Positions 5,085-63,410 of a stretch of DNA of 64,000 nucleotides are shown here, piece after piece (positions within the stretch are counted from its first letter, which is position 1; each line of letters starts with the position of its first letter). The DNA lies in assembly GCA_946800325.1 (NCBI GenBank), contig OX326961.1:39856543-39920542 (forward strand), in the 5' to 3' direction. Source of the DNA: Luzula sylvatica. Taxonomy: Eukaryota; Streptophyta; Magnoliopsida; Poales; Juncaceae. The position numbers and the translations under genes were made by a program. Under the pieces are notes generated by a model, which did no database searches, was not told where the DNA came from, and saw nothing but the letters and a program-made list of their open reading frames with translations.

Positions 5085-5535
5085 TATAACGGACTTGGTG
5101 TCCGTTGTAACGGACCCTGTATAGGATGCGGGGGTGTGAGGAGGACCGTGAAAACTGCATATTCCGTTGTAACGGACTTGGAGTCCGTTGTAACGGACCT
5201 TGTATCTGATACGAGGTTGCGGGGATGCCTAGGGTGTCTATTGGAGTCCGTTGTAACGGACTGGGTCCGTTGTAACGGAGCTCTACACAGTTGGTCCGTT
5301 GTAACGGACTGTATGTTGCGTTGTAACGGACTGGTCTCTGGAAATTTGGACGAAAGTTTGCAGAAAATAGCGTTGTAACGGACCTAGGTTGCGTTGTAAC
5401 GGACATGTTTCTGGCAAAATTTGGCCAAACTCCGAAATAAATAGCGTTGTAACGGACTGGACTTCCGTTGTAACGGAGTGCCAAGTATACTGGAGGTCCG
5501 TTGTAACGGACTATGTTGCGTTACAACGGACTGGT
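5085..5535. repeat. Paired palindrome array in the Copia-1 leader
   Basis: About 14 copies of a near-perfect dyad, GTCCGTTGTAACGGAC or close variants (a few start GCGTT, one has GTTATAAC, one GTTACAAC). Most come in pairs whose starts are 19-22 bp apart, typically 21. The pairs themselves are irregularly spaced. The array lies between the PBS and gag. Its reading frames are not coding. Confidence 0.95.
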
Positions 5536-6315
5536 TTCTGGTTGCTGATTTTGTTTTCGTGATAACTTTGGCTACACAACTTGGAATTTTGAGTTCTTTA
5601 TATCGATTTGATCGGCATCAATCATACTAGCATATAATTAGATAATTATTTAGAATAATTAGACTCCCAAATAAATACATATGCATTTATGAAAATCTTG
5701 TGATTGTGATATAATTGGATTATGTCACGGATTTAGAAACATGCAATGGCATGATCCCTCATAATATTTAAGTCATGGCAATGCCTTCCATATCCACAAC
5801 CATCGAGATTGATATGACATAGTGCGTGGTTTCAGGCCATAGTCGGGCACGTACTATTGTATATATTGGTGCGGGTGGTAAGCGTTAATTGGGGACTCAC
5901 GTGGTTTCAGGCCATAGTCGGGCACGTGAGTAGTTCAATTGAACGATACGATGGATATGGTTATGACTTAACCGTCCAAGCCAATCCGATTGGAGTTCGG
6001 GGCATAGATAGGATGCACACACGGAACTGGGATTGTATTGGATACGATCCATCACCGAAATCCTATAAAGGTTCAAGAGTCGTATTGGATACGATTGGAT
6101 TTAATCCTACCTAAAATATCGAGATCTCATTTGTCGGCCATAGTCACTTATGGGAGGATCGTAAAATATGGGTCTTGAGTGTTATGGACTTGGAGTCCCG
6201 TATCGGTATGAGGGTTATCGATTCGATAAAATAACACTATCATATAATCATCATATAAGCCCTATAAGATAAGTACGCAACGTTAGTAATCAATCTTTCA
6301 CTTCATTTGTAGATC
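5536..6315 (+). other. Copia-1 leader, remainder
   Basis: Non-coding leader between the dyad array and gag. It is clearly homologous to the minus-strand leaders of Copia-2 (about 37160-38000) and Copia-3 (about 60480-61260). It contains repeated short blocks of the type GGTTTCAGGCCATAGTCGG (about 5830 and 5905, with a shorter one near 6134). In Copia-2 and -3 the matching block reads GGTTAAGGCCAAAGCCGAC. Confidence 0.75.
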
Positions 6316-9300
6316 ATGTCTTCTAGTAACACCAACACCATGTCGATTAGATCGACTTTAGAAAAGGATAAGCTAGTGGGTCGGAACTATTTTGACTGGC
6401 ACCGAAACCTGAGAATAGTTCTCAGGCAAGAGGGCAAGAGTCACGTATTGGATACGGAACTAGTGGAACCGGGCCCCGATGCTACGGCCGAAGAAAAGGC
6501 CGCGTTTGAGAAACTTAAGAAGGACTCAAATGATGTTACGTGCCTCATGTTGGCATGTATGGACGCTAGTCTTCAAAAGCAGTTTGAGGACTCGGATGCG
6601 CACATCATAGACGTTGTGCTCAAGGAAATGTTCCAAGAGCAGGAGCGTATTGAACGGTTCAGTACGCTCAAAGAGTTGGTAAACTGCAAGATGCCTTCGG
6701 GGTCTTCGGTTAGCTCTCACGTTTTGAAGGTGCAAGCTCTCATAGACCGTCTTGAGAAGCTAGGAGAGAAATTGTCGAAGATTATGCAACAAGATTTGAT
6801 CTTGTGTGCATTTCCTCCAATGTTTTCTCCGTTCGTGACTAACTATCACATGCATTCGATGGATAAGACGATCCCTGAGCTTCACGGAATGCTCAAGAAT
6901 TTTGAATCAGAGACGTTAAAGTCGTCCGGAGAGAACAGGGCAAGAGTTGCCGGAAATGTTCTCACAATTCAGAATAAGGATCGTAAGAGATCAAAGTCCA
7001 AGGGCGGATCGGCTAAGAAACGTTCGAAGCCGAATAAAAAGGGAAAGGAGAAATCCAAGGATGAGACGTGCTTTCATTGTCACAAGGCTGGACATTGGAA
7101 GCGCGATTGCAAGTCTTACCTCGAGGAGGTGAAGAAGGGCAAGGCGGTTTCAGCGACCGGCCTCTCAGGTATTAACGTTATTGAAGTTAATATTTCAACT
7201 ATGACTAATTGGGTATTGGATACCGGTTGTGGGACTCATATTTGTCGAAATATGCAGGTTCTTCAAAATAGTCGAAGGTTGGAAAAGGGTGAAGTCGATC
7301 TACGCGTCGGGAATGGAGCAAGAGTTGTTGCGTTTGCCGTAGGAGTAGTTAATTTGACTTTACCTAGTGGACTTATTTTAGTACTAAATAATTGTTATTA
7401 TGTACCGACATTATGTAAGAACATAATAAGTGTGTCGAAACTGGCCAATGATGGCTATGAATTCGTTATTAGGAATAATGAGTTTTCGATATGTAAGGAT
7501 TCTATTATCTATGGAAATGTTCTGTTAGAAAATGGTCTTTATGTGTTGGATTTCGATCACGGAAATAATAAGTCGATATATAACGTTAATGTAAAAAGGA
7601 TTAACTCTAAAGTTGATAATCGGACTTTCTTTTGGCATTGTCGTCTCGGTCATGTGAATGAGAAACGCATTGCTAGACTCCATAAAGATGGAATGCTAGA
7701 CTCATTTGAATTGGATTCATTTGGGAATTGCGAATCTTGTTTACTTGGCAAGATGACTAAGGCGCCGTTCTCCAAGGTCGGAGAGCGGTCCAACGATCTA
7801 TTGGAACTCATACATTCCGATGTGTGTGGACCGATGAGCATCGAGGCAAGAGGAGGCTATCGATACTTTGTTACGTTTACGGACGATCATAGTAGATATG
7901 GATATATCTATTTGATGCGTACTAAAGCGGAGACCTTTGAAAAGTTCAAAGAGTTTCAAAACGAAGTTGAAAATCAACTTGGCAAGAAAATTAAAGCCAT
8001 TCGATCGGATCGAGGTGGCGAATATTTGAGCTATGAGTTTGAAGATCATCTAAAAGATTGTGGAATAGTTCCACAATGGACTCCGGCAGGAACACCACAA
8101 TGGAATGGCGTGTCCGAGAGGAGGAATCGGACCTTGTTGGACATGGTTCGCTCTATGATGAGTCAAACTTCCCTTCCAAAATCGTTTTGGGGATTTGCCC
8201 TTGAGACAGCGGCTTTCTTGTTGAACCGCATACCTTCTAAATCGGTACATAAGACGCCATATGAGATGTGGTTTGGAAATTCTCCAAAGTTGTCTTTTGT
8301 TAAGATTTGGGGTTGTGAAGCATATGTTCGAAAATTGATTTCGGATAAGCTCGAACCCAAATCTGAAAAATGTTTATTTGTCGGGTATCCTAAGGAAACA
8401 AAAGGATATTATTTCTATCTTCCAATCGAAAATAAAGTTTTCGTAGCTCGAAGAGGAGTCTTCCTTGAGGAGGATTTTATCTCTAGGCGAGTGAATGGGA
8501 CTGAAATAGATCTTGAAGAAATTCGAGACCCGCAAACGAATGTTGAACCGATGAACGCTGATCCGATTTCCTCAAATGTTGAGGATCCGGAGTCAAGTGC
8601 ACAAGGCGCAGTTCGTAGATCGGGTAGGATTCGTCAAGAGCCTATACGATATGGTTTTATCGTGGCAAATGACGATGAAGTCGAATTCATAGATGATGAA
8701 CCGACATCTTATCGCGAGGCTATGAAAAGCGAAGATTCCGATAAGTGGCAAACTGCCATGAAATCCGAGATTCAATCCATGTACGATAATCAAGTTTGGA
8801 ACTTGATTGATCCACCTCCCGGGGTTAAACCAGTGGGATGTAAATGGGTCTTCAAGAAGAAGACCGACATGGATGGGAATGTAAACACTTATAAAGCACG
8901 GCTTGTGGCGAAAGGTTTCAAACAAATTCATGGTGTAGACTATGAAGAAACGTTTTCTCCAGTAGCAATGCTTAAATCCATACGGATCTTACTTGCTATT
9001 TCTGCGTATTATGATTACGAGATTTGGCAAATGGATGTCAAAACCGCATTCCTTAACGGGAACTTAGAAGAGGATGTGTACATGACACAGCCCGAGGGTT
9101 TTGTCGATTCGAAGAGTCCGAATAAAGTGTGCAAGTTGCAACGATCCATTTATGGATTGAAGCAAGCTTCTCGGAGTTGGAATATACGTTTCGATGAAGT
9201 TATACGAGAATATAATTTCGTGAAAAACGTAGAAGAACCTTGTGTATACAAGAAGGTTAGTGGGAGCCGCGTAGTATTTCTTGTACTATATGTAGACGAC

Positions 9301-10268
9301 ATCTTGATCATAGGAAACGACATTCCGATGCTTACGGATGTTAAGAAGTATTTAAATACTCGTTTCGCTATGAAAGATTTGGGCGAGGCCGCTTATATAT
9401 TAGGCGTGAGGATTTATAGAGATAGATCCAAGAAGTTACTCGGCTTGAGTCAAAGCACGTACATCGACAAAGTGTTGAAACGGTTTTCAATGCAAAATTC
9501 GAAGAAAGGACTTCTTCCAATGTCGAGTGGCATATCGTATTCTAAAGCTCAATGTCCGACATCGAGCGAAGATAAGAATGCGATGAGTATTGTTCCATAC
9601 GCTTCGGCGGTTGGATCAATTATGTATGCCAATATTTGTACGCGCCCCGATGTGTCGTATGCATTGAGCGTCGTTTCGCGTTACCAATCTAATCCAGGGG
9701 ATATGCATTGGATCGCGGTTAAGAACATCCTTAAGTACTTACGAAGAACTAAGGATCAATTTCTAATTTATGGTGGAAAGACATCCGGGTTGGTCATCAA
9801 TGGATATACCGACGCCAGTTTCCAAACATGTGTCGATGACTTTCGATCACAAAGCGGATACGTGTTTTGTCTAAATGGTGGAGCGGTAGTTTGGAAGAGT
9901 TCCAAACAACCCACGATAGCAGACTCTACAACTGAATCGGAGTATATTGCGAGGCGGTTTGGATCAAGAAGTTTGTGTCGGAGCTTGGTGTAGTCCCGAG
10001 CATCTCGGAACCTGTAGTTGTGTATTGCGACAATACGGGCGCAATAGCACAATCCAAGGAACCGAGGGCACATCACCGCTCCAAGCACATACTCAGAAAA
10101 TTTCACTTGATCCGTGAGATTTTGCAAAGGAAGGATGTGATCATTGAGAAGATTGATACTGACAGGAATGTTGCGGACCCGTTTACTAAGCCACTCTCGC
10201 AAGCTAAGCACGATTATCATGCGAAAGCTATAGGTTTGAGATACCTAGAGGAGGAAGAGAGTAGTTAG
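6316..10268 (+). pseudogene. Copia-1 gag-pol polyprotein, frameshifted in RNase H
   Basis: A single frame of 1225 codons (6316-9993), followed in another frame by the last 97 codons (to 10268). In order it contains: an N-terminal gag domain (about residues 1-210); a CCHC zinc knuckle, CFHCHKAGHWKRDC (about 250); an aspartic protease with WVLDTGCGTHIC; the pre-integrase HHCC region (FFWHCRLGH); integrase with D, D and E in HSDVCGP, IRSDRGGEY and NGVSERRN; RT with WQMDVKTAFLNG and LYVDDILI; and RNase H with DSTTESEYIA. Just after that motif the frame shifts: about 19 nt appear deleted between two GCG-type codons, and the true frame resumes as AVWIKKFVSELG-like sequence. All other catalytic motifs look intact. 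The deletion probably abolishes RNase H, so this copy is likely dead despite its youth. Confidence 0.92.
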
Positions 10269-11308
10269 TTATCTAAAACGATAATTTCGTAGGACGAGAT
10301 TAGTCTAATAGATTAGTAAACGTTGTATCACCCCAAACTTATCTTATAGTAATGCAATTTCAGAATTTTAAAATTTTTCATTTTTGCATCTATCTTATAT
10401 GCAAATTGTGTGCTGGGTTGTGTAATATGATTGTTACATGAACCTTGATTTGAACTTGTGTGGACGTCGACATGGTTGAGGACCATGTGCAGCGAAACCG
10501 TCACACTTAAAGTGTCATTTCTAAACATCCCTAGTCGCGGATCAGCTTGCTTAAGAGAGAAGCATTTCTATTATTAGATAATAGACTGAACGCGTACACT
10601 AGTACGTTTGCCGAGGAGATGATTATGTTTTGCTAATCATGGGACAAAGGAGTTTGTCGAATCGGGAACGTAGATATATGTTAGGTTACATGTATTGGAT
10701 ATGACCGAAGCCGCGAGACCATGACATGGTTTAGTCATTATAGATGGACTTGCGACGGATGGGGTTTTAGATTCTTCATACTTGAGGGGATCATTGATTG
10801 TGTTACGTGCGTAACACAATGCTTTGATATGATCTTACGCTTACCGTAACAGGGAGTTAAAAGGGTCATCGTTGGGTATTGTCCGAAACACGGAATTCAA
10901 TGTGAGTCTCCAAGATAGGAATTGTTTATTCCGAAAGGAAGAGATATCTCTTAGGCGCCGCTCGATGAGTCGATTAACGAAAACTGTGGCCACAATCAAT
11001 GATATTAATGGTTAATATCGATTGAAATTTGTTAACTCAACTCGGAATCGGGGAATAAGTGTAGTTAATCAAATTATAAGGATGACTATTACCATGCCTT
11101 TTGATTAACGGATATCGTAAACAAGAGAACTAGTAACCGCTATTCGAGATAGGCACAATGATCACAATCATTTTTCGTTTAACATGGGTAGCTATGATGG
11201 AGTGACTAGATCCCGCTCATGAGCTTGTAGGCATTGGAAACAACCTACTACCATATTTAAGTCGAACCTACATGGTCACACAACGAGTCGTACTAAGTCG
11301 GGCTTGAT
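10269..11308 (+). other. Conserved non-coding block after Copia-1 pol
   Basis: About 1 kb without a convincing ORF. Most of it (about 10450-11300) is nearly identical to the reverse complement of 32700-33610 in Copia-2, even though Copia-2 pol is badly decayed. Shared landmarks include GGCGCCGCTCGATGAGTCGA and GTTACGTGCGTAACACAATG. Normally this block runs into the polypurine tract and 3' LTR; here it breaks off at GGGCTTGAT. Confidence 0.85.
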
Positions 11309-11574
11309 CATAAAAGGAAAATTCCGGCAGTTATGATTAAGTTAGATTTCACAAAAGCTTTTGATAATATTTCATGGGATTTCCTTCAGCAAGTTCTTAT
11401 CGCAAGAGGATTCCCGAACACATGGATACTATGGATATTATCTATCCTAAAATCCTCATCATCCATAATAAAACTCAATGGACAAGAAGGACCATCAATC
11501 AAACACCAAAAGGGCCTTAGACAAGGTGATCCCTTATCTCCTCTACTTTTTAATCTAGTAGTAGACACACTACA
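11309..11574 (+). repeat. 266-bp LINE segment copied next to the Copia-1 3' LTR
   Basis: Identical by eye over 266 bp to LINE positions 3538-3803, ending in the very target site CTACA that flanks the 5' LTR. It replaces the end of the Copia internal region and its polypurine tract. It encodes part of LINE RT again, but only as a duplicate fragment. Confidence 0.95.
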
Positions 11575-12551
11575 TGAAAGAAATACAGTTTCGGATCAAC
11601 CGTAAAAGTGTACACAAGGATAAACGAATGTAGTCGTACATTCATGGCCATAACTTTCAGTGGGAAAATCCAATTAGAATGGTTCAAATTGGGTTAGATA
11701 GATAATGAGATTATCTACAACCTTCATATAGAAATATATTTCATATGAACGAAGTATAAGTGTCGTTTCTGTGAAATACCGAAAGGGTGCAACAGTATGA
11801 CATACAGTTCGTAAAACAGTCATAACTTTTGCATACGAACTCCAATTGGGCTGGACCAAATTGGGTTGAGTATATAATAAGATTATCTACAACTTTCGTG
11901 TTGGTTGAGTTTCTGTCAGAGAAATTTATCAATTTCGTCTGGACAGAATACTGAACAGGTTCATACAGTTTTCTGTGTGAAAGGGTGTATATTGGATATA
12001 CATGCCTTTTGGCTAATCCTTATCCTATTAGGTATAAATAGGATTTTCTCTCTCATCTTCACTAAGGGAATTCAGAAGTAATTCAAAGCAATATTCTGCC
12101 CAAGACACAAGAAAAAGAGCAAATTCAGATTTGATCTTTTGTGAGTGAAAAGGCACGAAGAGAGATTAATAGAGAATCGATCGAGATCAAGCAAGTGCAC
12201 CGATACATCATCTAGGCAGGTGTATCCGTGTCCGGCGTCTTCCGACTCAAGGTGGATACGTGTGGAGGAGCAACACTTGGGGCTCTCCGTTGTGATCGAA
12301 CCGAAGGATCGAAGAACGGGAACGAACGGTGAAGGACGCACGGTGTGGGACGCGCGTAAAGTCACCAACGTGACCGGAGGAATAGGAGGCAGCGATCAAC
12401 CCTTCGTGTTCCATCAATTTGGAACTGGTATGGATCTAACCTTCTATTTGCATCGTACCCTCGAAGTCGTGGCGTGATCTCGGGAATCGGGGAATCGGAC
12501 CGGGCCTACATATCCGCTGCGCGGGCCCGGGGCCGGGGATATTCCCCAACA
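11575..12551 (+). repeat. Copia-1 3' LTR
   Basis: 977 bp, TGAAAGAAATACAG...CCCCAACA. It differs from the 5' LTR by six substitutions and a 6-bp duplication in the GGCCCGGGG tract near the end. The first substitution is about 70 bp into the LTR. TATA box at 12033-12040. The CTACA target duplication follows. Confidence 0.95.
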
Positions 12552-12556
12552 CTACA

Positions 12557-26696: not shown

Positions 26697-27010
26697 GAAA
26701 AAAGCTCACTTTTGCCTCCTGAAGTGTTCGAAAAATTGCAACTTGCCCCCCAAACTCTAATTTTGTTCATTTTGCTCCCTAAACTCTCATTTTTGCTCAC
26801 TTTTGCCCCCTCCATCAGTTAAGTGCCCAGTCAGCAGTTAAGTGATGACGTGGCTGTGATGACTTGGCAATTTTTTGATGATTGTACTGCTGACGTGGCC
26901 AAATTTAAATTATAATATTACATATCCAATAACAAACAAATAAATTCAATAACCCATTATTTGAACCCAATAACCCATTAACCCAATAACCAAATAAACC
27001 CATTTGAACC
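26697..27010 (+). repeat. Left terminal inverted repeat of the Mutator-like element
   Basis: About 314 bp, complementary to 48951-49265. It contains two TGACGTGGC motifs (26846-26854 and 26891-26899), an ACGT-core sequence typical of plant bZIP sites, and ends in a run of AACCCA-type repeats. Confidence 0.92.
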
Positions 27011-27344
27011 TGTGGGTTCAAATTTCCTGATAGTTTGATTATTTCAAAACACTGTCATTACTAATGTATACATCCAGAAAAGTGCAGGATAACATAGGTA
27101 CGATACGAAGATGAAGGAGGACTTGTAAAGGAGGACTTCATTGGATTACATCAAGAATCAGGACATGAAGTCTCAACATAAACAAGAAAAGAAGAACACA
27201 AGGAAGGCCATTGGAATACATCAAGACTCAAGATGTTGAAGCCTTCCGTGAGTGGGATACGCCACAAATAAACCATAGGTACAAACCTAGTAGAACTCAA
27301 GTAAAATCATGTTCAAAATAACAAAGAGTTCAGTCAAGCAGGAA

Positions 27345-27915
27345 GTGCGTTCTGAACGAACTCAAAGTCCGTTCAGAACGGACTTGCTAAATATCAAAGC
27401 TTTAAAGCTTGATTAGAACCAAACGTGTCACAGGGATGTGTACGTTCGAACGAACAATCATGTCCGTTCGAACGGATAATTATAATCCGTTCACCCACCT
27501 TCTGAGTGCGTTGAACGGACAATCTTTCCTGTGAACGAAAAGTGTCACAGGGATGTGTACGTTCGAACGAACAATCATGTCCGTTCGAACGGATAATTAT
27601 AATCCGTTCACCCACCTTCTGAGTGCGTTGAACGGACAATCTTTCCTGTGAACGGAAAACGTCACAGGGATGTGTACGTTCGAACGAACACACATGTGCG
27701 TTCGAACGGACAACCTGGAATCCGTTCACCCACTTTTCAGTGCGTTGAACGGACTCTTGTTCCTGTGAACGCAAAATGCTATGTATAATTGAGTCCGTTA
27801 CGAACGGACATTGTCCGTTCGAACGGACCCAAGATGTACTTGCACGTTATTTTGAAACGGCTAGTGCAAACTTCAAGTGCGTTCTGAACGGACTGTATGC
27901 GTTCGAACGCACTGC
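27345..27915. repeat. Paired palindrome array in SIRE U3 with a 117-bp tandem repeat
   Basis: Dyads such as GTCCGTTCGAACGGA, GTGCGTTCTGAACGAAC and GTCCGTTACGAACGGAC occur in pairs whose starts are 20-22 bp apart. Within 27427-27777 three 117-bp tandem units each carry one such pair plus single half-sites. The last dyad ends about 30 bp before the TATA box. The same array is at about 44600-45170 in the 3' LTR. The 126-codon minus-strand frame across it is a repeat artefact. Confidence 0.95.
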
Positions 27916-27943
27916 AAGTTTTCTGAAGGATTTCTATAGAGAG

Positions 27944-27951
27944 TATAAATA
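27944..27951 (+). promoter_or_regulatory. SIRE LTR TATA box
   Basis: TATAAATA just downstream of the U3 palindrome array, followed by a CT-rich probable transcription start region. Confidence 0.75.
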
Positions 27952-28534: not shown

Positions 28535-28550
28535 TGGTATCAGAGCAGGG
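28535..28550 (+). other. SIRE primer-binding site
   Basis: TGGTATCAGAGC two bases after the LTR end, matching initiator Met-tRNA. Repeated at about 45791 after the 3' LTR. Confidence 0.95.
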
Positions 28551-28601
28551 TACTAACCATCTCTTAAATTTATTAAGGATAAACTTGTACCTTACGATCT
28601 A

Positions 28602-29807: not shown

Positions 29808-29942
29808 AACCCTAACTTGAGACACTATACTCCCTAGTATACCATACCATAAGCCAAATATTTAGGGGGAGTATAGTTAGTAAGAATTCATATTAGTCAA
29901 TTTCAATTTCTTTATGTTTTAACTAATATGAATTTCTTATAG

Positions 29943-37135: not shown

Positions 37136-37159
37136 CTAAGAACTATTCTTTGACTATCA

Positions 37160-38986
37160 AGGTTAATAACGGTAATTCCGGCCCAAAAGCCATCTATCAT
37201 ATCGATCTCATCGATATATTTGGTGTTGCTTGAAAACATAATTCTAAACGGATGATGAAGATTAACTCCTAACCGTACGTACTTAATCTATATGCTTATA
37301 TGATGAATATATGAATGTGTTATTTTTATCGAATCGATAACCCTCATACCGATACGGGACTCCAAGTCCATAACACTCAAGACCCATATTTTACGATCAT
37401 CCCACAAGTTGCTTTGGCAGACGAGTGGGATCTCGCTATTTAGGTAGGATTATATCCAATCGCATCCAATGCGACTCTCGAACCTTTATAGGATTTCGGT
37501 GATGGATCGTATCCTATACAATCCCAGTTCCGTGTGTGCATCCTATCTATGCCCCGAACTTCCAATCAAGTCGGCTTTGGCCTCAACCCTTACTGGCTTG
37601 AACGATTAAGTCACAACCATACTCATCGTATCGTTCAAATAAACTACTAATAAGTCGGCTTTGGCCTTAACCCTTATCAGTCCCTATTTAACGCTTGCCA
37701 CCCCGTCGATGACTACAATAACCCATGTCGGCTTTGGCCTTAACCCATGTGAGACGTAGTACCGATCATAGTGGTTGTGAATATGGAAGGCATTTCCATG
37801 ACTTAAATATTATGAGGGATCATGTCATTGCATGTTTCTAAATTCGTGACATAATCATATTATATCACTATCACAAGATTTGTAAATGCATATGATTTAT
37901 TTAGGGAGGTTAATTATTCTAAATAATTAATTATCTAATATGCTAGAATGTTTGATGCCGATCAAATCGATATAAAGAACTCAAAATTCCGAGCTTCGTA
38001 GCCAAAGTTATCGCGAAAACAAAAACAACATCCAGAGAAGGGTCCGTTATAACGGACTGCCCCATCCGTTGTAACGCAGGGGCCACGGGGCGCGAGAAAA
38101 CCTCGCCCGGGACGCGTCCGGGGCGCCAAAAACCGCCCCCGGGGCGGCAGAAAAACTATTTTTCTGCACCCTTTCGTTATTTCATTAGAACGACACTAAT
38201 ACTTCGCTCAAATAAAATATATTACAACATGAAAGTTCTAGATAATCTAATTATCTAACTAAAACAATTTGAACCATTCAAATCGGAAATTTCTACTGAA
38301 AGTTATACCAGTTTTAGTAAAATACGAACAAACGAAAAGGTAAGTATATCCAATATACACCTTTTCAATCAGAAAACTACAGACACCTTTTCAGTATTCT
38401 GTTGAAACAAAAATATTAAATTGTTCCAACCGACTTTGAACGTGAACGAAAGTTCTATATAATCTTATTATCTAACTAACCCAATTGGATTGGACTCAAT
38501 TGGAGTTTCGATGTGACATATACGGACGTTTTAGTCTCTGTATGTCAAACAGTCGCACCCTTTCAGTATTACATAAAAACGACACTGATAATTCGTTCAA
38601 ATGAAAACACTTTCTGTATCAAAGTCATAGATAATCTCATTATCTAACTACGCCAATTTGATCCAATCAATTTGGAGTTTCCCACTGAAAATTATCTTAG
38701 TTTTACTCACTGTTTCGTATTCTAACTTTCTGCAGATTTTGCCGTTTCGTCCGTTTTCGCTCGTTTCCAAAACGATAAATCATGAAACTTTTTCATGATC
38801 ATTCCTAGATACTCTCAATCAACTTTTGATCGATCTCTAGCGAATTCCACTTGTGATTTTAACGGAATTTGACTTTCTCTATATGTAACATCATGCAAAC
38901 GGGTACGAACTTTGATAACCCGTGCGTATATCTAATATACGACTATGATTCGACCCTCGAATCGATGGCGATCGCTCTGATACCAC
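37160..38986 (-). other. Copia-2 leader with GC-rich block and U3-like repeats
   Basis: Read on the minus strand from the PBS: about 38150-38710 contains three degenerate copies of the ~170-bp U3 unit, with blocks such as GATAATCTCATTATCTAACT and CACCCTTTCGGTATT. Then comes a GC-rich stretch (about 38075-38150) and two remnant dyads (GTCCGTTATAACGGAC at 38042-38057 and CCGTTGTAACG at about 38069). Then follow Copia-1-like leader blocks including three copies of GTCGGCTTTGGCC (plus strand, about 37575, 37655 and 37729). Confidence 0.8.
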
Positions 38987-40079: not shown

Positions 40080-40084
40080 GTACG

Positions 40085-41669
40085 AACTCGGTCTCGTGTC
40101 CATAACTACGTAGCTCATTGCGCATATCTTTCTCACACCGAACCAAAATCCTTCAAGGAAGCCAATCTAGACGAAGATTGGATTATCGCAATGCAAGAAG
40201 AATTGGAACAATTTGAAAGAAATCAAGTGTGGATGTTGGTTCCAAAACCCATGAATCGTTCGATCATTGGGACTCGATGGATCTTTCGAAATAAACTTGA
40301 TGAACACGGAAACGTAGTACGAAACAAGGCGAGACTCGTCGCTCAAGGATTCAAACAACGAGAAGGGATCGATTTCGAAGAAACCTTTGCTCCAGTGGCT
40401 CGTCTAGAAGCGATACGACTCCTCCTAGCTTACGCCGCTATTGAGGGGTTTACACTATTTCAAATGGACGTCAAGAGTGCATTTCTAAATGGTGAAATCG
40501 AAGAAGAAGTCTACGTTGAACAACCACCGGGATTTAAGGATCCTAAATTCCCCGATTACGTGTGCAAACTCTCAAAAGCCCTATACGGATTGAAACAAGC
40601 CCCACGAGCATGGTACGATCGACTATCCTCATTTCTCACCTCAAATGGTTTCGTGAGAGGTATAATCGACACCACCCTCTTCACACGTAAAAAGGGAGTA
40701 TCCATTTTACTTGTTCAAATTTACGTAGATGATATTATTTTTGGATCAAGTGATGCGGCTCTTGCCGAAGAATTCTCTATTCTTATGCACAGTGAATTTG
40801 CCATGAGTATGATGGGAGAGTTAAAATTCTTCTTGGGTCTTCAAGTCACACAATCAAGTGAAGGAATTTTCGTCAACCAATCAAAGTACACTCGCGAATT
40901 ATTAAAGAGATTCGAGTTGGACCAAACTAAAACGAGTGACACTCCAATGGCAAAGGAATCAAAATTGGATGCGGATGAAGAGGGCGAATCGTTCGACATT
41001 ACGTCCTATAGAGGAATGATCGGGAGCCTCCTTTATCTAACGGCAAGTCGTCCCGACATCATGTTCGCCGTATGCTTGTGCGCTAGATTTCAAGCTAACC
41101 CCAAGGTATCACATTACACGGCCGTAAAACGCATATTTCGTTATTTAAAAGGTACAATTGAGCTTGGGATATGGTACGGACATAGTGGGAACCTAAACCT
41201 AGTAGGATACACTGATGCGGATTTTGCCGGATCCCGAGTTGATCGAAAAAGCACTAGCGGTACATGCCAATTTTTGGGAGGTTTACTTGTATCATGGTCA
41301 AGTCGGAAACAACACTCGGTAGCCTTATCGACGGCCGAAGCCGAGTATGTCGCCGCAGGAAGCTGCTGTGCTCAATTACTGTGGTTGAACCAAACCCTCG
41401 GAGACTACGGTTTGAACTTCCGTAAAATCCCCATATTGTGCGACAACAATAGCGCAATATGCATCTCGAAAAACCCGGTCCACCATTCACGAACCAAGCA
41501 TATCGACATACGTCACCACTTCATTCGGGATCACGTGGAAAAAGGCGATGTTAAACTCGAATGGATAGAGACTCAAAATCAAATTGCCGACATCTTCACA
41601 AAACCGTTACCATTTGCTCCTTTCTCCGATCTACGACTAAAGCTAGGTATGTTATCTCTTAAGAATTAA
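40085..41669 (+). pseudogene. SIRE pol part 2: reverse transcriptase and RNase H
   Basis: Continuation of the SIRE pol frame after Copia-2. RT contains [69 protein letters not shown] and the catalytic VDDIIFG. RNase H contains [51 protein letters not shown] and [10 protein letters not shown]. There are no stops from 40085 to 41669. The break at the Copia-2 site is the only lesion seen in pol, so pol was probably open when the element inserted. Confidence 0.93.
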
Positions 41670-41790
41670 AATTCAGCATATTGGGTCTAGTCTCATGTAG
41701 TTGCATCATGGTATAATCATAAGTACAAATAGAGTTGTTGAACTAGGGTCAGTGGTTTGGGTCAATACATCCGGGTCTCAGCTCAGTATC

Positions 41791-41995
41791 AAGTCCGTTC
41801 GAACGAACAAAAGAGTGCGTTTGGAACGGACAAATGAAGTCCACAAACACCATCCTTCCAGACTCAAGTCCGTTCGAACGAACAAAAGAGTGCGTTCGGA
41901 ACGGACAAATGAAGTCCACTAATACCATCCTTCCAGACTCAAGTCCGTTCGTACGAACAAACAGTGCGTTCGGAACGAACAGATGAAATGTATGA
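41791..41995. repeat. 75-bp tandem repeat with paired palindromes after SIRE pol
   Basis: Three units starting at 41791, 41866 and 41941. Each has a GTCCGTTCGAACGAAC-type dyad followed 22 bp later by GTGCGTTCGGAACGGAC or a variant. Further dyads follow at about 42040-42060 and 42118-42150, before the extra ORF, and at 43946-43984 after it. Confidence 0.93.
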
Positions 41996-42366
41996 TTATG
42001 ACTGCTTTTCATATTATGGCGCCTTTCCCAACAGTTGCAAGTGCGTTCGAACGAACTCGAAAACCTCTCACCTACAACGCAAACCCAAACAATGGAGCCT
42101 TTTACCCAGAAGCGTGTACGTTGGAACGCACATGAATGTCCGTTCGAACGAACTCGTCGTAGTTACTCTCCATCTGCATGCAACCGACCCTCATCAATGG
42201 ACGCTTGGTTCTTCCTCTCGTACGAAGAAACTTAAAGAGACACGATTTACGCTCTTGAAACCCTTCACCTTATCTTCTCTTTCCAAAACTCTTTCTCCTG
42301 TATCAGAAGAGAACAGGAGAAAGCTCGAAAGCTCAAGAAATACCACCGACTCCATCGATTGTTCAC

Positions 42367-43734
42367 ATGAAGAGGGGCACGCCAGCCAACAGACCTAATC
42401 ACAGCGCACGAATGGAAGCAGATTACGATTTCACTAATCCGAATAACGATTATCTCTTTCGAAACCAGGAAGCCGGACTCCTTTTCAATAGCGTTGTGGT
42501 AAGGAGACCCCTCTCAAAATCTTACTATTACGAGTTTCCACGAAATTGTTCTATTCTTTCCAACAAGATCGAGGAAATCGAGAAAAAATGGGGATTTGCA
42601 AACCTTGCGCGTCTCAACGAGAGGTCGTATGAGATCATCACTCGGCTATTCTATGCAAACGCCACTTTCGATCATGCCCCAGATAAGATAACCTCGTTTA
42701 TTCTCGGTGAGGAAGTTGTAATCTCGGTGCAGAATTTGTGCGACTTGTTCGGGCTCAAAGATGATGGAGAGAAGGTGTACAACGACCGCAGGGGGAAAAT
42801 TGAAATCGAAGGGTTCGAAACCATGAAGAAAGTGGTCACGAATAAATACGCATCACAATCAGCAGTGTCACACTTGGCCGCTCCTGAAAAATTCGTCTGG
42901 ATAATTGGTAATAACATTCTCGCTCCAGTTGAAAAATTGAGAGTAAACCTCGAAGATCGAAATATCTTGTGTTTATATCGCATGTGGTACGAGGACCAAC
43001 TGCCCATCCATGTGCCTCATCTCATATTAAGCCACATGGAAAGCGCCATGAAGCTTAGGAATGCGTCGTTACCCTATGGAACGTTGATTGCTCGAATGTT
43101 GAACCTCCAAGGAGTCTCGATACCGGCGGAAGATTGGGATTTCCGACCTGAACCACCTATCAACCTCTCGTCAAAATTAAATCTTCTGCGTCAAAGGTTT
43201 CGGTATTCGGCACAAGCTCATGAATGGATTATCGATCACCCAGATGAAGAGGGAGCGTTCCACCTTCCTCCAAATCCTACCCGTTGGTTGGAGAGTGAAG
43301 CTCCATCCGATCAGAGCAGTGCAAACCAGGCTCGACCACGTGAGAGGAGTGAGAGTGTAAGAAGTTCGAACGTCCCGATGGAAAGGGATGAAAGGCGGTT
43401 CGCTCACATAACGTCGTTGCTAGAGGAAATGAATAAGCGTATGGAGCGACATGAACGAGGGATTCGAAATGAAATTCGAGAGGGCATGCAAGTTTCCGAG
43501 ACAAGGATGCTCGAGAGAGTAGAACGTCAATTTTCCGACCTTTACGGTCATCTTGAAAACCGTTTCGGGTCCTACCCTGAACCTCGAGAACAAGCCAATC
43601 CTCCTCCTCCAGCTAATCCCACCGCAAATCCGTCGAGGTCCCATTCGGGAACTTTCAACGTCGACGACTTCTTTGCGTCCGGTCCAAGCTATCATCCCGA
43701 CCCGAACCCTTACCCCGGTCCCAACGAGATGTAA
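42367..43734 (+). CDS. Additional ORF of the SIRE-like element (plant transposon-domain-like)
   Basis: An intact 455-codon frame between pol and the 3' LTR, in the position of the env-like gene of SIRE elements. It shows no signal peptide or transmembrane segment. Residues ~55-260 form one globular region containing KKWGFANLARLNERSYEII, FYANATFD, SFILGEEVVISVQNLCDLFG and WIIGNNILAPVEKL. This layout (a helical segment, 'FYAN', then 'G..V..S...L..L.GL') resembles the uncharacterised plant transposon-protein/plant-mobile-domain families, as I recall them. Residues ~340-400 are a charged coiled coil, and the tail is Pro/Asn-rich. A second possible start is Met17 (42415). Function is unknown; a gag-like or DNA-binding role is only a guess. 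Confidence 0.7.
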   Translation: MKRGTPANRPNHSARMEADYDFTNPNNDYLFRNQEAGLLFNSVVVRRPLSKSYYYEFPRNCSILSNKIEEIEKKWGFANLARLNERSYEIITRLFYANATFDHAPDKITSFILGEEVVISVQNLCDLFGLKDDGEKVYNDRRGKIEIEGFETMKKVVTNKYASQSAVSHLAAPEKFVWIIGNNILAPVEKLRVNLEDRNILCLYRMWYEDQLPIHVPHLILSHMESAMKLRNASLPYGTLIARMLNLQGVSIPAEDWDFRPEPPINLSSKLNLLRQRFRYSAQAHEWIIDHPDEEGAFHLPPNPTRWLESEAPSDQSSANQARPRERSESVRSSNVPMERDERRFAHITSLLEEMNKRMERHERGIRNEIREGMQVSETRMLERVERQFSDLYGHLENRFGSYPEPREQANPPPPANPTANPSRSHSGTFNVDDFFASGPSYHPDPNPYPGPNEM

Positions 43735-44253
43735 TCACCGGTGGTAGTATAAGTGTCTTGTGTTGTAGTGTCTATTTTTATATGACATGCATGTGTGTGA
43801 AAACGTGTGGTTATTGTGTTTGTTGTGTATGGAGTCTTTGTGTCATGCCATGTTGTGAACAAACTGTTTTATGGTCATATTGTCAGTTTAAACTGTTGCA
43901 TCTATGTTGGATTTTTATTTTTATAACCTATCAGTCCAGAAGCAAGTGCGTTCGAACGCATTACGTTTTCCGTTCGGAACGCACACACACAAAACTGTTA
44001 TATTTTCTTAAAAATCTGCTAAAATTTTGAAAAGATTGTCATCATTCAAAACAAAAGAATTTGATCATATTTACGAGCTCATACATTCATCAATTCATTC
44101 TTTGAGGGGGAGCTCGCATTTAGGGGGAGCCTTCCGTTGTTGAAGTCTCCTTGGCCCTTTTGATCTCTTTCAAAATGGGGGAGAAACGATCGTACGGAAA
44201 GTTCTCAACTAAATGGTGAAACTCTCCAAACCGACAGTGTTTTGAAAGTAATC
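43735..44253 (+). other. SIRE 3' untranslated region
   Basis: Non-coding. It contains one dyad pair (43946-43984), then several G-runs of the type GAGGGGGAGCT and TAGGGGGAGCC, and leads to the polypurine tract. Confidence 0.7.
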
Positions 44254-44266
44254 AAAAGGGGGAGTT
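44254..44266 (+). other. SIRE polypurine tract
   Basis: AAAAGGGGGAG directly before the 3' LTR; start site of plus-strand DNA synthesis. Confidence 0.85.
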
Positions 44267-45788
44267 TGTTGGTTCAAATTTCCTGATAGTTTGATTATTT
44301 CAAAACACTGTCATTACTAATGTATACATCCAGAAAAGTGCAGGATAACATAGGTACGATACGAAGATGAAGGAGGACTTGTAAAGGAGGACTTCATTGG
44401 ATTACATCAAGAATCAGGACATGAAGTCTCAACATAAACAAAAAAAGAAGAACACAAGGAAGGCCATTGGAATACATCAAGACTCAAGATGTTGAAGCCT
44501 TCCGTGAGTGGGATACGCCACAAATAAACCATAGGTACAAACCTAGTAGAACTCAAGTAAAATCATGTTCAAAATAACAAAGAGTTCAGTCAAGCAGGAA
44601 GTGCGTTCTGAACGAACTCAAAGTCCGTTCAGAACGGACTTGCTAAATATCAAAGCTTTAAAGCTTGATTAGAACCAAACGTGTCACAGGGATGTGTACG
44701 TTCGAACGAACAATCATGTCCGTTCGAACGGATAATTATAATCCGTTCACCCACCTTCTGAGTGCGTTGAACGGACAATCTTTCCTGTGAACGGAAAGTG
44801 TCACAGGGATGTGTACGTTCGAACGAACAATCATGTCCGTTCGAACGGATAATTATAATCCGTTCACCCACCTTCTGAGTGCGTTGAACGGACAATCTTT
44901 CCTGTGAACGGAAAACGTCACAGGGATGTGTACGTTCGAACGAACACACATGTGCGTTCGAACGGACAACCTGGAATCCGTTCACCCACTTTTCAGTGCG
45001 TTGAACGGACTCTTGTTCCTGTGAACGCAAAATGCTATGTATAATTGAGTCCGTTACGAACGGACATTGTCCGTTCGAACGGACCCAAGATGTACTTGCA
45101 CGTTATTTTGAAACGGCTAGTGCAAACTTCAAGTGCGTTCTGAACGGACTGTATGCGTTCGAACGCACTGCAAGTTTTCTGAAGGATTTCTATAGAGAGT
45201 ATAAATAGAATCCTTCATGGGTCTCTCTCTCCCACTTCCTCAATTTCAAACTTTCAAACCTAAAAGAGAGAAACCCTAAGCTGTGATTTTCTATATCCAT
45301 TGATAGCTTGAGAAACCTCTTTAGATCGTTGATCTACTTTCGATATTCTCCACTAATCGTATCCCACTCACGTGACCGATCACGTTGTAGCTCGATTAGT
45401 GAAAAAGTGTAATAGGCTAGTGCAACAAAGTGTAAAGAGCCTAAGCTATAGATCGATAGAAGCGTGTAAATCGATCTAGGCAAATCCTTGTAATCGAGTT
45501 GAGTTGGAATTCAATCGAAAGCCAAAAAGAGGCACAAGGCATTCCCGGAGACGTAGGTACTCGCAAATAATTGAGTCGGTCAATTAAGCGAGTAAAGGGT
45601 GAGTTAAAGCTACAAAGCAACCACCTACCGAACTTCGTAAACAAACATCTTGTGTCAAAGTGTTTGTACGGTATCATCTTTATCATCTAAATTATTATTT
45701 ATTCCGCACCGTAAATTAGGTTTAAATCTAAACTAAGTGTAAGTTAGATTGCCAAATTTACCCCCCTCTAGGTTAGAATTAACCAACA
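44267..45788 (+). repeat. SIRE-like 3' (middle) LTR
   Basis: 1522 bp, TGTTGGTTCAAATTT...TTAACCAACA, about five differences from the 5' LTR. It is followed by another PBS and internal region instead of host DNA. Confidence 0.95.
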
Positions 45789-47084
45789 ATTGGTATCAGA
45801 GCAGGGTACTAACCATCTCTTAAATTTATTAAGGATAAACTTGTACCTTACGATCTAATGGCTGAAGTTAATCCCTTGAGCGCAGTGGAAGCAGCCATTC
45901 ACTCTCTCCGTATTGAATGAGGTCTAACTTCGACACACCACCAGCCCATAATTGTAGACGCAGAACCTTCCTCTCCCACTCTAAGCTCGACACATGACAA
46001 AAGTTATGAGGTACGTACTAACTCTCTGTATGGTATAAAATCTTTACCTAGACCAGAATTTTCTCCCGCATCCAAACTAGAACTCGAATCTTGTGACGAG
46101 TTTCTTAGGGATGAAGGTAACTCTCAACTAAATGAGGGTAAACTTGAAAGTTCCACCCAAGCTCTCAAGGATAAGGTAGCTTCTCTTGAACTATCCATCT
46201 TGGCATACAAAACTCAAATAAATGAATTTAAAGGATTTTCAAAATGTGAATGTAAAACCCTGAAATGTGAGATTTCTCATTTAAAAGTAGAAATTCAAAC
46301 TATGAAAGTTGAGAATGAGTCCTTGAAGAGGGCATGTAAAATGATAGCATTGAGTCCCCCTTCATTGGATGATGCCTTAAAATCGTCATTCACGGGACAA
46401 AAGCCAAATGATAAATTCGGTTTAGGACATAAGAAAATTAATGGTAATAATCCCTACCTTTCAATATCTCAAAATCAAAAATCTAAATGGGAAAACCATA
46501 AAGTAAGGAGTCATGGAAATGCTTTTATGTACCATGACTACAACAAAGGTAAATATGCTAAAAATGAACAACCTAAACGTATCAATAATAATTATAGGAA
46601 CAATCATTTTACACAAAATTCACAACCTAGACATAATAATGTAGGACGAACCGATTGTTTGTTCAAAAGGGGACCAAATGGATATTTCTATGAAGTGACA
46701 AACTACACCGAAGCTTCATATCAACAAGAGTCCCCCAAACATTTCACCAAGTCATACAAACAATTTAAACAAAATAATGTTAAGCAAACTAAATTTAAAT
46801 CAAATAACCTTTATGAAATGCCAAAATCGATAACTTCTAAGAGAAGTAATCCTAATAAACTCTCGGACTATTTTGTGAAGAGTACCACACCCACAAATAA
46901 GCCCACCGTAGCATTTTGTAACTATTGTTGCAAAATCGGTCATGTCTCAACCGGGTGTAATCTTCGCAATCCAAAAGTGGCATCAAACGTCATGTGGATG
47001 CGTAAAGATCGTCACTCAATGGGTTCCTCTACCTCCTTTGGTATAGGACCCCCTAGGGTGTAAAACCCTAACTTGAGCCCAAAA
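45789..47084 (+). repeat. Second SIRE internal start (tandem copy), with defective gag
   Basis: Repeats 28533-29829 with only about three substitutions, including the PBS and the defective gag frame (45859-47063, same early TGA, same CCHC). It stops at AACTTGAG, where unrelated sequence with a minus-strand PBS begins. It therefore lacks pol and a third LTR. Confidence 0.92.
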
Positions 47085-60460: not shown

Positions 60461-61723
60461 TCTTTAACTATCAAGGTCAATTATGGTAATTCCGGCCCAA
60501 AAGCCATCTATCATATTGATCTCATCGATATATTTGGTGTTGCTAGAAAACATAATTCTAAACGGATGATGAAGATTAAGCTCCTAACTGTGCGTACTTA
60601 ATCTATATGCTTACGTGATGAATATATGAAAGTGTTATTTTATTGAAAATCGGTAACCCTCATACCGATACGGGACTCCAAGTCCATAACACCCAAGACC
60701 CATATATCACGATCCTCCCACAAGTTGCTTTGGCAGACGGGTGGGATCTCCCTATTTAGGTAGGATTATATCCAATCGCATCCAATGCGACTCTTGAACC
60801 TTTATAGGATTTCGGTGATGGATCGTATCATATACAATCCTAGTTCCGTGTGTACATCCTATCTATGCCCCGAACTCCAATCGTATTGGCCTGGACGGTT
60901 AAGTCACAACCATATCCAACGTATCGTTCAAATAAACTACTAATAAGTCGGCTTTGGCCTTAACCCTCATCAGTCCTTATTTAACGCTTGCCACCCCATC
61001 GATAGCTACAATAACCCATGTCGGCTTTGGCCTTGACCCATGTGAGACGTAGTACCGAAAATAGTGGTTGTGAATATGGAAGGCATTTCCACGACTTAAA
61101 TATTATGAGGGATCATGATATACATGTTTGTATACGTGACATAATCGTATTATATCACCATCACAAGATTTGATTGATAATTAACCTTTAATAATCATTT
61201 TATATGATAGTATGAGAGATGCCGATTCTATCGATATAAAGAACTTAAATTTTCGAGTTTCGTAGCCAAAGTTATCGCGAAAACAAAAAACAGCATTATG
61301 CCAACCAGGGGACAGTCCGTTCCAACGAACTGAGGTTCGTTCGAACGAACCTATCCCTGTCTTTCAAGACCCTTGGTCGCATCTCCGCATACCCGGTTCG
61401 TTCGGGACGAGCTGGCCAGTCAGTTGGAACGAACTGGCCCCTGGAGACCCTGAAAACCCTGTTTTCGTGTAGTTTTTCGCCGTTTTTCCGTTTTCGCTCG
61501 TTTCCAAAACGATAAATCATGAAACATTTTCATGATCATTCCTAGGTACTGTCAATCGTCTCATGATTGATCTCTAGTGAATTCCACTTGTGATTTTAAC
61601 GAAAAATTAAACTTATAAATATCTAGCATCATGCAAACGGGTACAAACTTTGATAACCCGTGCGTATATCGAATATACGACAATGATTCGACCCTCGAAT
61701 CTCAGCGCTTGCTCTGATACCAC
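60461..61723 (-). other. Copia-3 leader
   Basis: Homologous to the Copia-1 and Copia-2 leaders, including GTCGGCTTTGGCC blocks (about 60947 and 61018). A small dyad group lies at 61313-61440 (GTCCGTTCCAACGAAC, GGTTCGTTCGAACGAACC, CAGTTGGAACGAACTG). PBS complement GCTCTGATACCA at 61711-61722. Confidence 0.8.
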
Positions 61724-62903
61724 CGCAGGAAATTATCCCGTCCCCGGGCCCGCACAATGGATATGAAGGCCCGGTCCGGTTCCCAAATCCCGAGATCACG
61801 CTTCGATATCGAGGGTACTATGCAAAGTAGGATAGACGATTACCAGCGTGAAATTGATCACGCACGACGGGTTGATCGCTCGCATCCTTCTCTTCTTCGG
61901 TGTCACAATGGTTACTAGCCCGTGCGTCCCATACCACATGTTTCCCACCGTCTTGACACACCTCCGGTTGTCTTCGTGCGTCCCATGTCCACACGCTTCC
62001 ACAGCCTTCCACTCCTTTACTTCTCCGGTTTGATCACAAACGAAGAGCCACAAAGTGCGAACTCCTCTACTCGTATCCATTGTGAGTCGTAGCACCTCAG
62101 TCGCGGACGCACCTGCCTAGCCGATGCAACGGAGAACTTGCATGATTGCTTTCGATTCTCTAGGCGGAGAAAACTCTTTTCTCCTCTTTTCTCTTTCTCT
62201 CTTTCTCTTCGCACTCTTTCAACATCTCAACGACTGAATCAATGTCTTGAATAGATTAGACTGCTTCGAACAGAGTAGATGAGAGAGAAACATCATATTT
62301 ATACTAAATAGGATAAGGATTGGGTCAAAGATTGTGTATATCCAATATACACTTCCAGCATGAGGTTAGTTGGAACTCACCTTGAAGTCAGTTGGAACTA
62401 ACCTTGAGGTTAGTTGGAACGAACCATAAGGTTAGTTGGAACTAACCACTTTCTGGAATGAGTATGTATAAAACCATTTTATACACGAAGAGGTCAGCTG
62501 GAACGAACCATAAGGTTAGTTGAAACGAACCACTTTCTGGAATGAATATGTATAAAACCATTTTATACACGAAGTGGTCAGTTGGAACGAACCATAAGGT
62601 CAGTTGGAACGAACCATCTTCTGCCTCTTTTATGTGTTAATTCCAAATTAAATTCGTAGTAGTCTGTTCTAACGAACCATAAGGTTAGTTGGAACGAACC
62701 ACTCTTTGGAATGAATATGTGTAAAACCATTTTACACTCGTGGTGGTCCGTTCGAACGGACCCGATGGTTAGTTCGAACGAACCACTCTCTGGAACTTAA
62801 CTTTGCACAATCCAATTATGCATTTAATCAACCCATGAACATTCATGTTCATATATCCTTATATGTACATTTTTACGGTTGATCCGAAACTGTATTTCTT
62901 TCA
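61724..62903 (-). repeat. Copia-3 5' LTR
   Basis: About 1180 bp. The outer TG is changed to CG at 61724 on the plus strand (Copia-2 has TGTTGG there). A TATA-type box is at about 62295-62303 (minus). U3 (62360-62790) is filled with palindromes of the GGTTAGTTGGAACGAACC type. Ends ...GAAACTGTATTTCTTTCA at 62903. Confidence 0.88.
62360..62790. repeat. Paired palindrome array in Copia-3 U3
   Basis: About a dozen dyads: GGTTAGTTGGAACTAACC, GGTTAGTTGGAACGAACC, GGTCAGTTGGAACGAACC and GGTCCGTTCGAACGGACC. Neighbouring dyads are about 20-23 bp apart start to start. Groups are separated by a repeated spacer with AATATGTATAAAACCATTTT. Confidence 0.93.
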
Positions 62904-63077
62904 AAACGAACCTACACGGTCACACGACGAGTCGTACTATGTCGGGCTTGATTACAAGAATTGGCACATAGGATGTGCATGTCTTGGTATTTTGATACGC
63001 GAGCTATATTTTCTAAGATCGTGCATATTGGATATGAATGAGTACTTTTTAGGTAGATCTGAAATTGAGTGGGAGAC
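62904..63077 (+). other. Copia-4 internal 3' end and polypurine tract
   Basis: AACCTACACGGTCACACGACGAGTCG... matches the last part of the conserved block in Copia-1 and Copia-2. It ends in the purine tract GAGTGGGAGAC (63067-63077) directly before the LTR. The rest of Copia-4 is not found in the window. Confidence 0.85.
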
Positions 63078-63186
63078 TGTAAGAAATGCAGTTTTGGATC
63101 AACCGTAAAAGTGTACACAAGGACACACGAACGTACGCGTTCGAGAAGACGGTCGGATGCACAATAGGATTGTGCAGAATTGGGCG

Positions 63187-63410
63187 AAATAACACTGTGC
63201 GTCATGACGTACGATATGGTGCGTCATGACGCACCTAGTGTGTTCAGTCTGCAATGGTTGTGGATTTAGCGAAATTCAGGAAAAATACGGTCGTGCATCA
63301 TGACGGACCATATGGTGCGTCATGACGCTAGGATGCGTATTTTGTCCAGAAACTTTTTGACATCGTCAGTCATGACGCACCATATGGTGCGTCATGACGC
63401 ACTGTGTTAA
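63187..63410. repeat. TGCGTCATGACGCA palindrome pairs in Copia-4 U3
   Basis: Three pairs at about 63189, 63297 and 63368, each made of two CGTCATGACG-type dyads whose starts are 22 bp apart. They are centred on ATATGG or CCATATGG, so a whole pair is itself palindromic. The array ends about 85 bp before the TATA box. Confidence 0.93.

Follow-up and report, generated by a model that had tools for sequence, protein, structure and literature searches.

Paired and phased palindrome arrays in Copia retrotransposons of Luzula sylvatica and the protein that may bind them

What purpose is served by the rows of short palindromes that recur in several Copia retrotransposons of Luzula sylvatica? The question is raised by a 64,000-nucleotide stretch of contig OX326961.1 (C6:39856543-39920542 in a genome of 445 Mb in 37 contigs; hereafter the window), which is packed with nested Copia elements. 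Among these are a Sirevirus and four elements related to one another, E1 (+), E2 (-), E3 (-) and E5 (+), which have long terminal repeat (LTR) and leader sequence in common. The palindromic sites, or dyads, have a common frame, are paired two helical turns apart and stay in helical phase over longer distances. Their frame is better conserved than the spacers, and they lie in the U3 part of the LTR before the TATA box, in the leader, or before the third open reading frame (ORF3) of the Sirevirus. We consider it probable that the arrays are cis-regulatory platforms for a dimeric, sequence-specific protein, most likely a host factor.

A common site frame

All the arrays listed in an earlier, sequence-only reading of the window are present, and two dyad pairs that it missed, one after ORF3 and one in the E2 leader, can be added:

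5079..5531, plus strand: E1 leader array, 14 dyads with a purine-pyrimidine (RY) centre, mostly GT; gaps 19-22, 29, 33, 52, 53, 62 and 63 bp
27345..27912, plus strand: Sirevirus 5' LTR (U3) array, 12 dyads with a 2-3-bp centre; ends 32 bp before the TATA box at 27944
44601..45168, plus strand: copy of this array in the Sirevirus 3' LTR; TATA box at 45200
41793..42153, plus strand: Sirevirus internal array, from the end of pol to ORF3, 9 dyads
43946..43984, plus strand: dyad pair after Sirevirus ORF3, centres 43953.5 and 43976, 22.5 bp apart
38042..38079, minus strand: dyad pair in the E2 leader, centres 38049.5 and 38071.5, 22 bp apart
61315..61434, minus strand: E3 leader array, 4 dyads, one of them weak (12/14)
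62365..62783, minus strand: E3 U3 array in the 5' LTR, 12 dyads; pairs 22 bp, pair to pair 62-63 bp; TATA box at 62303 (minus)
63197..63402, plus strand: E5 U3 array in the 3' LTR, 6 dyads of GTNCGTC-AT-GACGNAC; gaps 22, 74, 22, 50 and 22 bp; TATA box at 63492

The Sirevirus 5' LTR array holds three further dyads with a 1-bp centre, near 27513, 27630 and 27747, which were read from the sequence and were also found by script in homologous loci. The arrays first reported at 62360-62790 and 61313-61440 are the U3 and the leader of one minus-strand element, E3, and in its U3 one half is frequently GTYAGTT. The array at 5085-5535 had been assigned to an LTR; it is part of the 5' leader of E1, between the primer binding site (PBS) at 4776 and the gag-pol frame at 6313. 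Three arrays do end just before a TATA box, as had been claimed (ends 27912, 62365 on the minus strand and 63402; boxes 27944, 62303 on the minus strand and 63492).

With the duplicate in the 3' LTR excluded, the window holds 61 dyads in eight arrays, and these follow, with few deviations, the frame GTNCGT(T/C)-N2/3-(A/G)ACGNAC. Scoring against GTN[C/A]GTT-N2/3-AAC[G/T]NAC, with at least 12 of 14 positions matching, gave 55 dyads (E1 leader 14, Sirevirus LTR 12, before ORF3 9, after ORF3 2, E2 leader 2, E3 leader 4, E3 U3 12), to which the six of the E5 U3 were added from a separate core search. Across the 122 halves, the first position is G in 104 and the second T in 118; the third is C in 56, T in 32, G in 29 and A in 5; the fourth is C in 105 or A in 15, the A mainly in the E3 U3; and the last three are G in 121, T in 121, and T in 108 or C in 13. 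The E5 array had been read as a different site, CGTC-AT-GACG. However, its outer frame, GTNCGT..ACGNAC, is kept and one base per half differs, T being replaced by C (GTGCGTC-AT-GACGCAC as against GTGCGTT-CG-AACGCAC, both among the genome matches listed).

A frame-specific test singles out the arrays: GTNCGTNNNNACGNAC with at most one mismatch has 51 matches in the window, compared with a mean of 0.88 and a maximum of 3 in 100 shuffles. Perfect dyads with an arm of at least 6 number 184, compared with 41-61 in 20 shuffles. Outside the arrays lie 146 of these 184 (about 50 would be expected in all), so a plain dyad scan alone fails to single the arrays out.

Two known plant sites can be set beside the frame. 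The R2R3-MYB consensus is AAC followed by a G two bases on, and a plain MYB site had been proposed for the arrays. This site was rejected, since the base after AACG is free in both large Sirevirus arrays (on the other strand C 12, G 5, T 4, A 3 in one and C 6, T 6, G 5, A 1 in the other) and E5 has GAC, not AAC; E1 halves are mostly AACGG. The NAC palindrome has the half-site TTNCGT[G/A], of which TNCGT is common to both, but the next base here is T or C (PMC4081100; this and the other papers are cited from their accessible parts). It was also rejected, because it needs a CGT-N7/8-ACG spacing (PMC4081100) and the arrays have 4-5; a barley NAC study also models spacings of 5-10 (PMC4106437).

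A second dyad, AGATAATNNNATTATCT, is found in the U3 of the E1 5' LTR and recurs in the U3 region of E1 and E2, often 172 bp apart. With up to two mismatches it has 15 matches in the window against 1.16 expected, and it is possibly the U3 counterpart of the arrays where elements are without them. Examples are:

3929-3945, 4101-4117, 11700-11716, 32254-32270, 32426-32442, 38240-38256, 38629-38645 and 39917-39933: AGATAATNNNATTATCT dyads

Spacing and helical phase

Are the dyads placed at random within the arrays? They are not, and the two-turn pairing at 19-23 bp that had been proposed is found and extends to longer distances. In the window, 31 of the 53 gaps between neighbours fall below 26 bp, every one of them at 19-22.5 bp (mean 21.5), and the other 22 peak at a period of 10.5 bp, with a mean cosine of 0.687. 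For 15 deduplicated gaps this gives p=0.0007 at 10.5 bp and p=0.036 over a scan of 7-16 bp. Among the first 100 TCCGTTNNAACGGA places listed, all on C1, 19 of the 75 gaps are short, at 19-22 bp, and the distinct gaps of 26-110 bp, 16 in number, give p=0.002 at 10.5 bp, although these places belong largely to the window families and their independence is weaker than that of the later 19-gap set.

The gaps were also pooled with those of arrays at further loci. This pool of 40 different gaps, drawn from 11 arrays or families, peaks at 10.5 bp in a 6-20 bp scan (0.622; next unrelated peak 0.23), and 35 of the 40 lie within a quarter turn of multiples of 10.5 bp. A conservative set of 30, in which homologous gaps were merged by judgement, has 25 within a quarter turn (p=1e-5; scan p=4e-4). 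Both sets hold gaps of 29-146 bp, typed by hand with one entry per distinct value per family, and leave out gaps below 26 bp, gaps of at least 159 bp and repeats. Nineteen gaps collected later, at 10 frame-match places outside the loci used before, peak at 10.6 bp, with p=0.014 at the preset 10.5 bp and p=0.049 for the 12 of them up to 100 bp; at least two of the ten places (C1:919 and 947 kb) resemble one Sirevirus family, which makes the set partly dependent. Across nine Sirevirus copies the gaps before ORF3 are 22.5, 52.5, 21.5, 76.5, 75 and 22 bp, with 71-72.5 bp in two copies and 76 bp in one among the exceptions. Longer gaps at multiples of 10.5 bp place the sites of an array on one helical face.

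The frame is abundant. GTNCGT-N4-ACGNAC has 39,846 matches genome-wide against 352 for a reversed control, and TCCGTTNNAACGGA has 30,577 against 4. Core pairs at 22 bp number 14,425 against 0 in the control and at 17 bp only 17, a contrast that is insufficient alone for phase, as 17 bp is sterically tight. Of 38 sites typed among the first 100 frame matches listed, 23 have the centre TNNA and 11 CNNG. At C1:87877-100128 (L001-L016) there are arrays with RY centres, of which two resemble each other and are separated by 8.9 kb; the DNA around them has no match to any window element.

Such regularity could also be a by-product, if a chance palindrome had been tandemly duplicated and then spread by recent retrotransposon bursts without any function. 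Evident tandem units (117, 75 and 84 bp) and many near-identical genomic copies are what this would leave behind, and the arrays have both. Nevertheless it is very improbable, and already disfavoured, because the 10.5-bp phase is common to different families, the identical frame occurs in two Copia lineages, and the frame beats the spacers in shared changes, though not in private ones.

Conservation of the frame

In nine Sirevirus copies of the array before ORF3, the frame differs at 10 of 814 positions (1.2%) and the spacers at 143 of 2091 (6.8%), and frame divergence is below spacer divergence in all nine. The third base differs at 18 of 136 (13%) and the centre at 33 of 155 (21%). For E1, 25 of 29 copies were compared, four at 87.6-91.3% identity being dropped. 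The 168 frame sites carry 5 shared and 16 private changes, the 237 spacer sites 25 and 17 (Fisher p=0.009), and the 28 centre sites 8 and 1; with all 29 copies and the third base counted in the frame, the figures are 5 and 21 against 26 and 17 in the spacers (p=0.001), p-values over copies not being independent. Private changes are about equally frequent in frame (16/168) and spacers (17/237), a pattern that selection on the active lineage would produce. The eight changes shared in the centres are transitions throughout, so that the R-Y order is kept. In one group of copies six centres are GC, against GT or AC in the window copy, whichever the direction of change.

Single loci can be compared in the same way. 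Against E1, the frame, spacer and centre identities are 97.6%, 90.2% and 75% for L062; 85.0%, 71.7% and 67.9% for L061; 99.4%, 96.7% and 89.3% for L064; and 99.4%, 98.4% and 96.4% for L026. Against the Sirevirus, a diverged relative, L065, has 95.2% in the frame, 74.4% in the spacers, 66.7% in the centre and 77.8% at the third base. Most copy comparisons therefore show the frame more conserved than the spacers; three young LTR copies, discussed below, do not. The sequence-only reading had named random spacing and a lack of extra conservation as signs of an incidental architecture, and on both counts the outcome favours function. The rapid half-site change that the sequence-only reading had described applies to part of the site, namely the centre and third base in the nine Sirevirus copies and the centre in E1, while the frame is held. 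The arms race suggested as its cause is only one possible reading, since partner switching would give the same picture.

Palindromes may also matter when folded, as a source of small RNAs or as leader RNA structure, which has been proposed for maize Sireviruses. Folded as RNA, two of the arrays are much more stable than their shuffles (z -9.5 and -14.9), and small-RNA hotspots lie at maize Sirevirus palindromes (PMC5311732, PMC10760457). There is, in addition, a weak excess of complementarity among 47 distinct dyads, at the third base (21, with 14.7 expected, p=0.026) and at the fourth (38, with 33.4 expected, p=0.007), both values being pooled over arrays that differ in make-up. An Rfam search gave 0 matches. 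However, pairing at the third base is optional (28 of 61 dyads are complementary there, and 0 of 9 before ORF3), third base and centre vary freely within a frame that stays fixed, and a DNA helical phase has no evident meaning for RNA hairpins. We regard hairpins as an improbable explanation; the pattern of substitutions agrees better with selection on the sites of a dimeric protein that binds cooperatively than with selection on hairpins.

A host or an element-encoded binder

If a protein binds the arrays, it may come from the host or from an element. The elements concerned are:

3804..4774, plus strand: E1 5' LTR, TATA box at 4262
6313..9993, plus strand: E1 gag-pol frame of Copia type (Retrotran_gag_2, rve, RVT_2)
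about 27009-45790, plus strand: Sirevirus, with E2 inserted within it
31496-40081, minus strand: E2, inside the Sirevirus
42259..43734, plus strand: Sirevirus ORF3, the third frame, in envelope (ENV) position; sub-threshold Pfam match PF20167 only

The Sirevirus has three features of its genus: the PBS TGGTATCAGAGC at 28535, which we take to be a tRNA-Met site; several copies of the polypurine tract (PPT) GGGGGAG upstream of the 3' LTR (44106, 44123, 44177 and 44258); and an ENV-position ORF (42259-43734) downstream of the reverse transcriptase (RT) frame (40059-41669), a gene that is optional in the genus. E1, whose LTRs end at 4774 and 12551, probably lies outside it. This placement rests on a related but distinct gag-pol (38% identity to the Sirevirus in the RT part), a single gag-pol frame, the lack of a third ORF (none above 79 amino acids between the RNase H end at 10268 and a fragment resembling a long interspersed nuclear element (LINE) at 11297) and the PPT GAGTGGGAGACTG of the related E2 and E5, unlike the Sirevirus type. 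More than one Copia group is thus involved, as had been suggested; on this placement the arrays of E1, E3 and E5 belong to a lineage other than Sirevirus, and such arrays are not restricted to that genus. That separate Copia lineages use one frame suggests that they have a partner in common.

Some rearrangements were seen alongside. The E2 insertion is flanked by an apparent 5-bp target duplication, GTACG, and the two E2 LTRs are 99.5% identical. A direct repeat of the Sirevirus (27011-29821 and 44267-47077; 2811 bp, 99.7%) spans the LTR, the leader and part of gag, so that beyond the 3' LTR there is internal sequence again, in truncated form. A LINE-like RT fragment, named by eye, precedes both E1 LTRs (3537-3803 and 11308-11574), and 3537-4774 and 11308-12551 are 99% identical; as such a flank is expected only at the 5' LTR, we read this as an odd duplication or recombination.

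The centres can be used to ask whether each lineage has a code of its own. Among the first 100 places listed for core pairs at 22 bp, 34 distinct pairs were typed, of which 20 are RY in both dyads, 14 are CG or related and 0 are mixed, with at least one further RY-RY pair left untyped. The window Sirevirus has CG centres, and E3 has CG and GG. Each array holds to a single centre code, which varies between element families. The RY code is found in E1 as well as in a Sirevirus-type LTR at C1:133-137 kb, where GGGGGAG forms three tracts and 178 bp match the window Sirevirus. The code thus does not follow lineage, which would favour a host partner.

The most obvious element-encoded candidate is ORF3, which looks like a real Sirevirus gene under purifying selection. 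Among the best 93 of 1139 candidate matches, 81 have no internal stop and 12 have one (the scoring favours intact copies), and a simple Nei-Gojobori count against nine copies gives a dN/dS of 0.21-0.35. Pfam found no DNA-binding domain in its product, the AlphaFold2 model of which has a pLDDT (predicted confidence) of 35 and is unusable for reading the fold. A protein search returned one relative, P0001, too few for a profile. No relative of ORF3 was found elsewhere in the window, and E1, with the same frame, is thus without it.

The product of ORF3, or Gag-Pol, might bind the arrays in trans in a VANC-like manner, countering silencing or driving its own promoter, with the other lineages as parasites of the system; VANDALs, which encode VANC, are DNA transposons. 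Selection on ORF3 and the internal array directly upstream of it speak for this. VANC targets, too, are short motifs in fast-changing tandem arrays (PMC5735166). We nonetheless think it unlikely, given that E1 has the same frame and nothing beside gag-pol as a candidate binder, and given the lack of a recognised DNA-binding domain in ORF3. The proposal that this ORF (the 42367 ORF of the sequence-only reading) encodes the binder may hold for the Sirevirus; E1 has no such ORF. The absence of an extra ORF from E1, together with the RY code in E1 and a Sirevirus-type LTR, favours the host over the element.

With a host factor, each array would be a row of 15-17-bp palindromic sites for a dimeric DNA-binding protein, a dimer, or a tetramer on paired dyads, having already been suggested and being supported by symmetry and spacing. 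The dimers would stand two turns apart within a pair, and the pairs about whole turns apart, and so on the same side of the helix, where contact or a common partner is possible and binding may be cooperative. The bound protein would drive transcription of the element, and the internal array that of ORF3. Its most likely identity would be a host transcription factor, or a few paralogues differing in centre preference, which separate Copia lineages may have taken up independently or by recombination.

Several points weigh against a host-bound platform. The dyad scan of the window did not find the array frame in the E1 U3, and the E1 array lies about 800 bp downstream of the TATA box, in the leader. 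No plus-strand TATA box was found between the Sirevirus internal array and ORF3, and the frame has no match to any factor that we can name. Off-phase gaps of 45, 69, 70, 76.5 and 87 bp occur among the pooled 40, and of 39 and 68 bp in the later 19. Further exceptions before ORF3, gaps of 26-26.5 bp in three of nine Sirevirus copies, stand, like the 71-bp gaps, outside every phase test. In the young LTR copies L066-L068 the frame (99.2%) and the spacers (98.0-99.7%) are conserved alike, and because the frame was defined on the window copy, conservation may be inflated up to about twofold.

How do the arrays compare with known systems? Sirevirus LTRs were described in 2010 as carrying palindromic boxes, for which no binder is known (PMC2829016). 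These repeated motif (RM) boxes lie before the TATA box and before the ENV-position gene, and also in the linker of elements that have this gene, and consist of many palindromic dyads of element-specific sequence, as here (Bousios et al. 2010, PMC2829016). They were called Sirevirus-specific and absent from classic Copia, and no common single-factor site was identifiable (PMC2829016). The RM core, however, is CGG..CCG at the axis, whereas here it is CGT..ACG with 4-5 bp between; many halves here are GTCCG, and CGGAC..GTCCG arises only across neighbouring dyads, at variable spacing. The accessible parts of PMC2829016 make no mention of pairing or helical phase, and the present arrays also occur in the leader and U3 of another lineage.

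A maize Copia motif, CACCGGACNNNGTCCGGTG, likewise forms LTR palindrome clusters, said to define a cis-regulatory region, but it has another half-site and is treated as hairpins or small-RNA targets, while symmetry here is dispensable at some positions (PMC10760457). VANC-VANDAL anti-silencing arrays resemble ours as dense tandem arrays of a short motif that evolve fast and lie outside the coding parts of related elements; they differ in their motif, YAGTATTAY, in an element-encoded protein and in the absence of palindrome wording from the accessible text (PMC5735166). In ONSEN a host transcription factor, HSFA2, activates the element through an LTR site, which is a heat-responsive element, and no long phased array is mentioned in the parts available (PMC3907296). 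EBNA1 at oriP of Epstein-Barr virus (EBV) and LANA of Kaposi's sarcoma-associated herpesvirus (KSHV) offer pairs of dimer sites, with centres 21 bp apart in EBV, and precisely phased cooperative binding in KSHV (PMC3798644). Those unrelated viral proteins serve replication and tethering, so this is an analogy only.

The Sirevirus arrays are thus a new instance of a known feature. Apparently new are the strict frame, the two-turn pairing and whole-array 10.5-bp phase, the leader and U3 arrays in another Copia lineage, the evidence of selection on a frame with a fast centre, and codes common to lineages; titles and abstracts of a limited open-access literature yielded no description of helical phasing of LTR palindromes.

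A bolder reading is possible, although we hold it doubtful: a dedicated DNA-binding family, host or element-domesticated, may form a phased cooperative filament or row of tetramers, EBNA1/LANA-like, on tens of thousands of retrotransposon sites, with two Copia lineages depending on it and switching among RY, CG and CATG codes. If so, the arrays would record the recognition system of competing elements, beyond the enhancer of any one element. With so strict a frame, a phase of 10.5 bp and some 40,000 matches in one genome, binding becomes a directly testable problem, and the fast centre beside the frozen frame offers a natural experiment in the evolution of a DNA recognition code.

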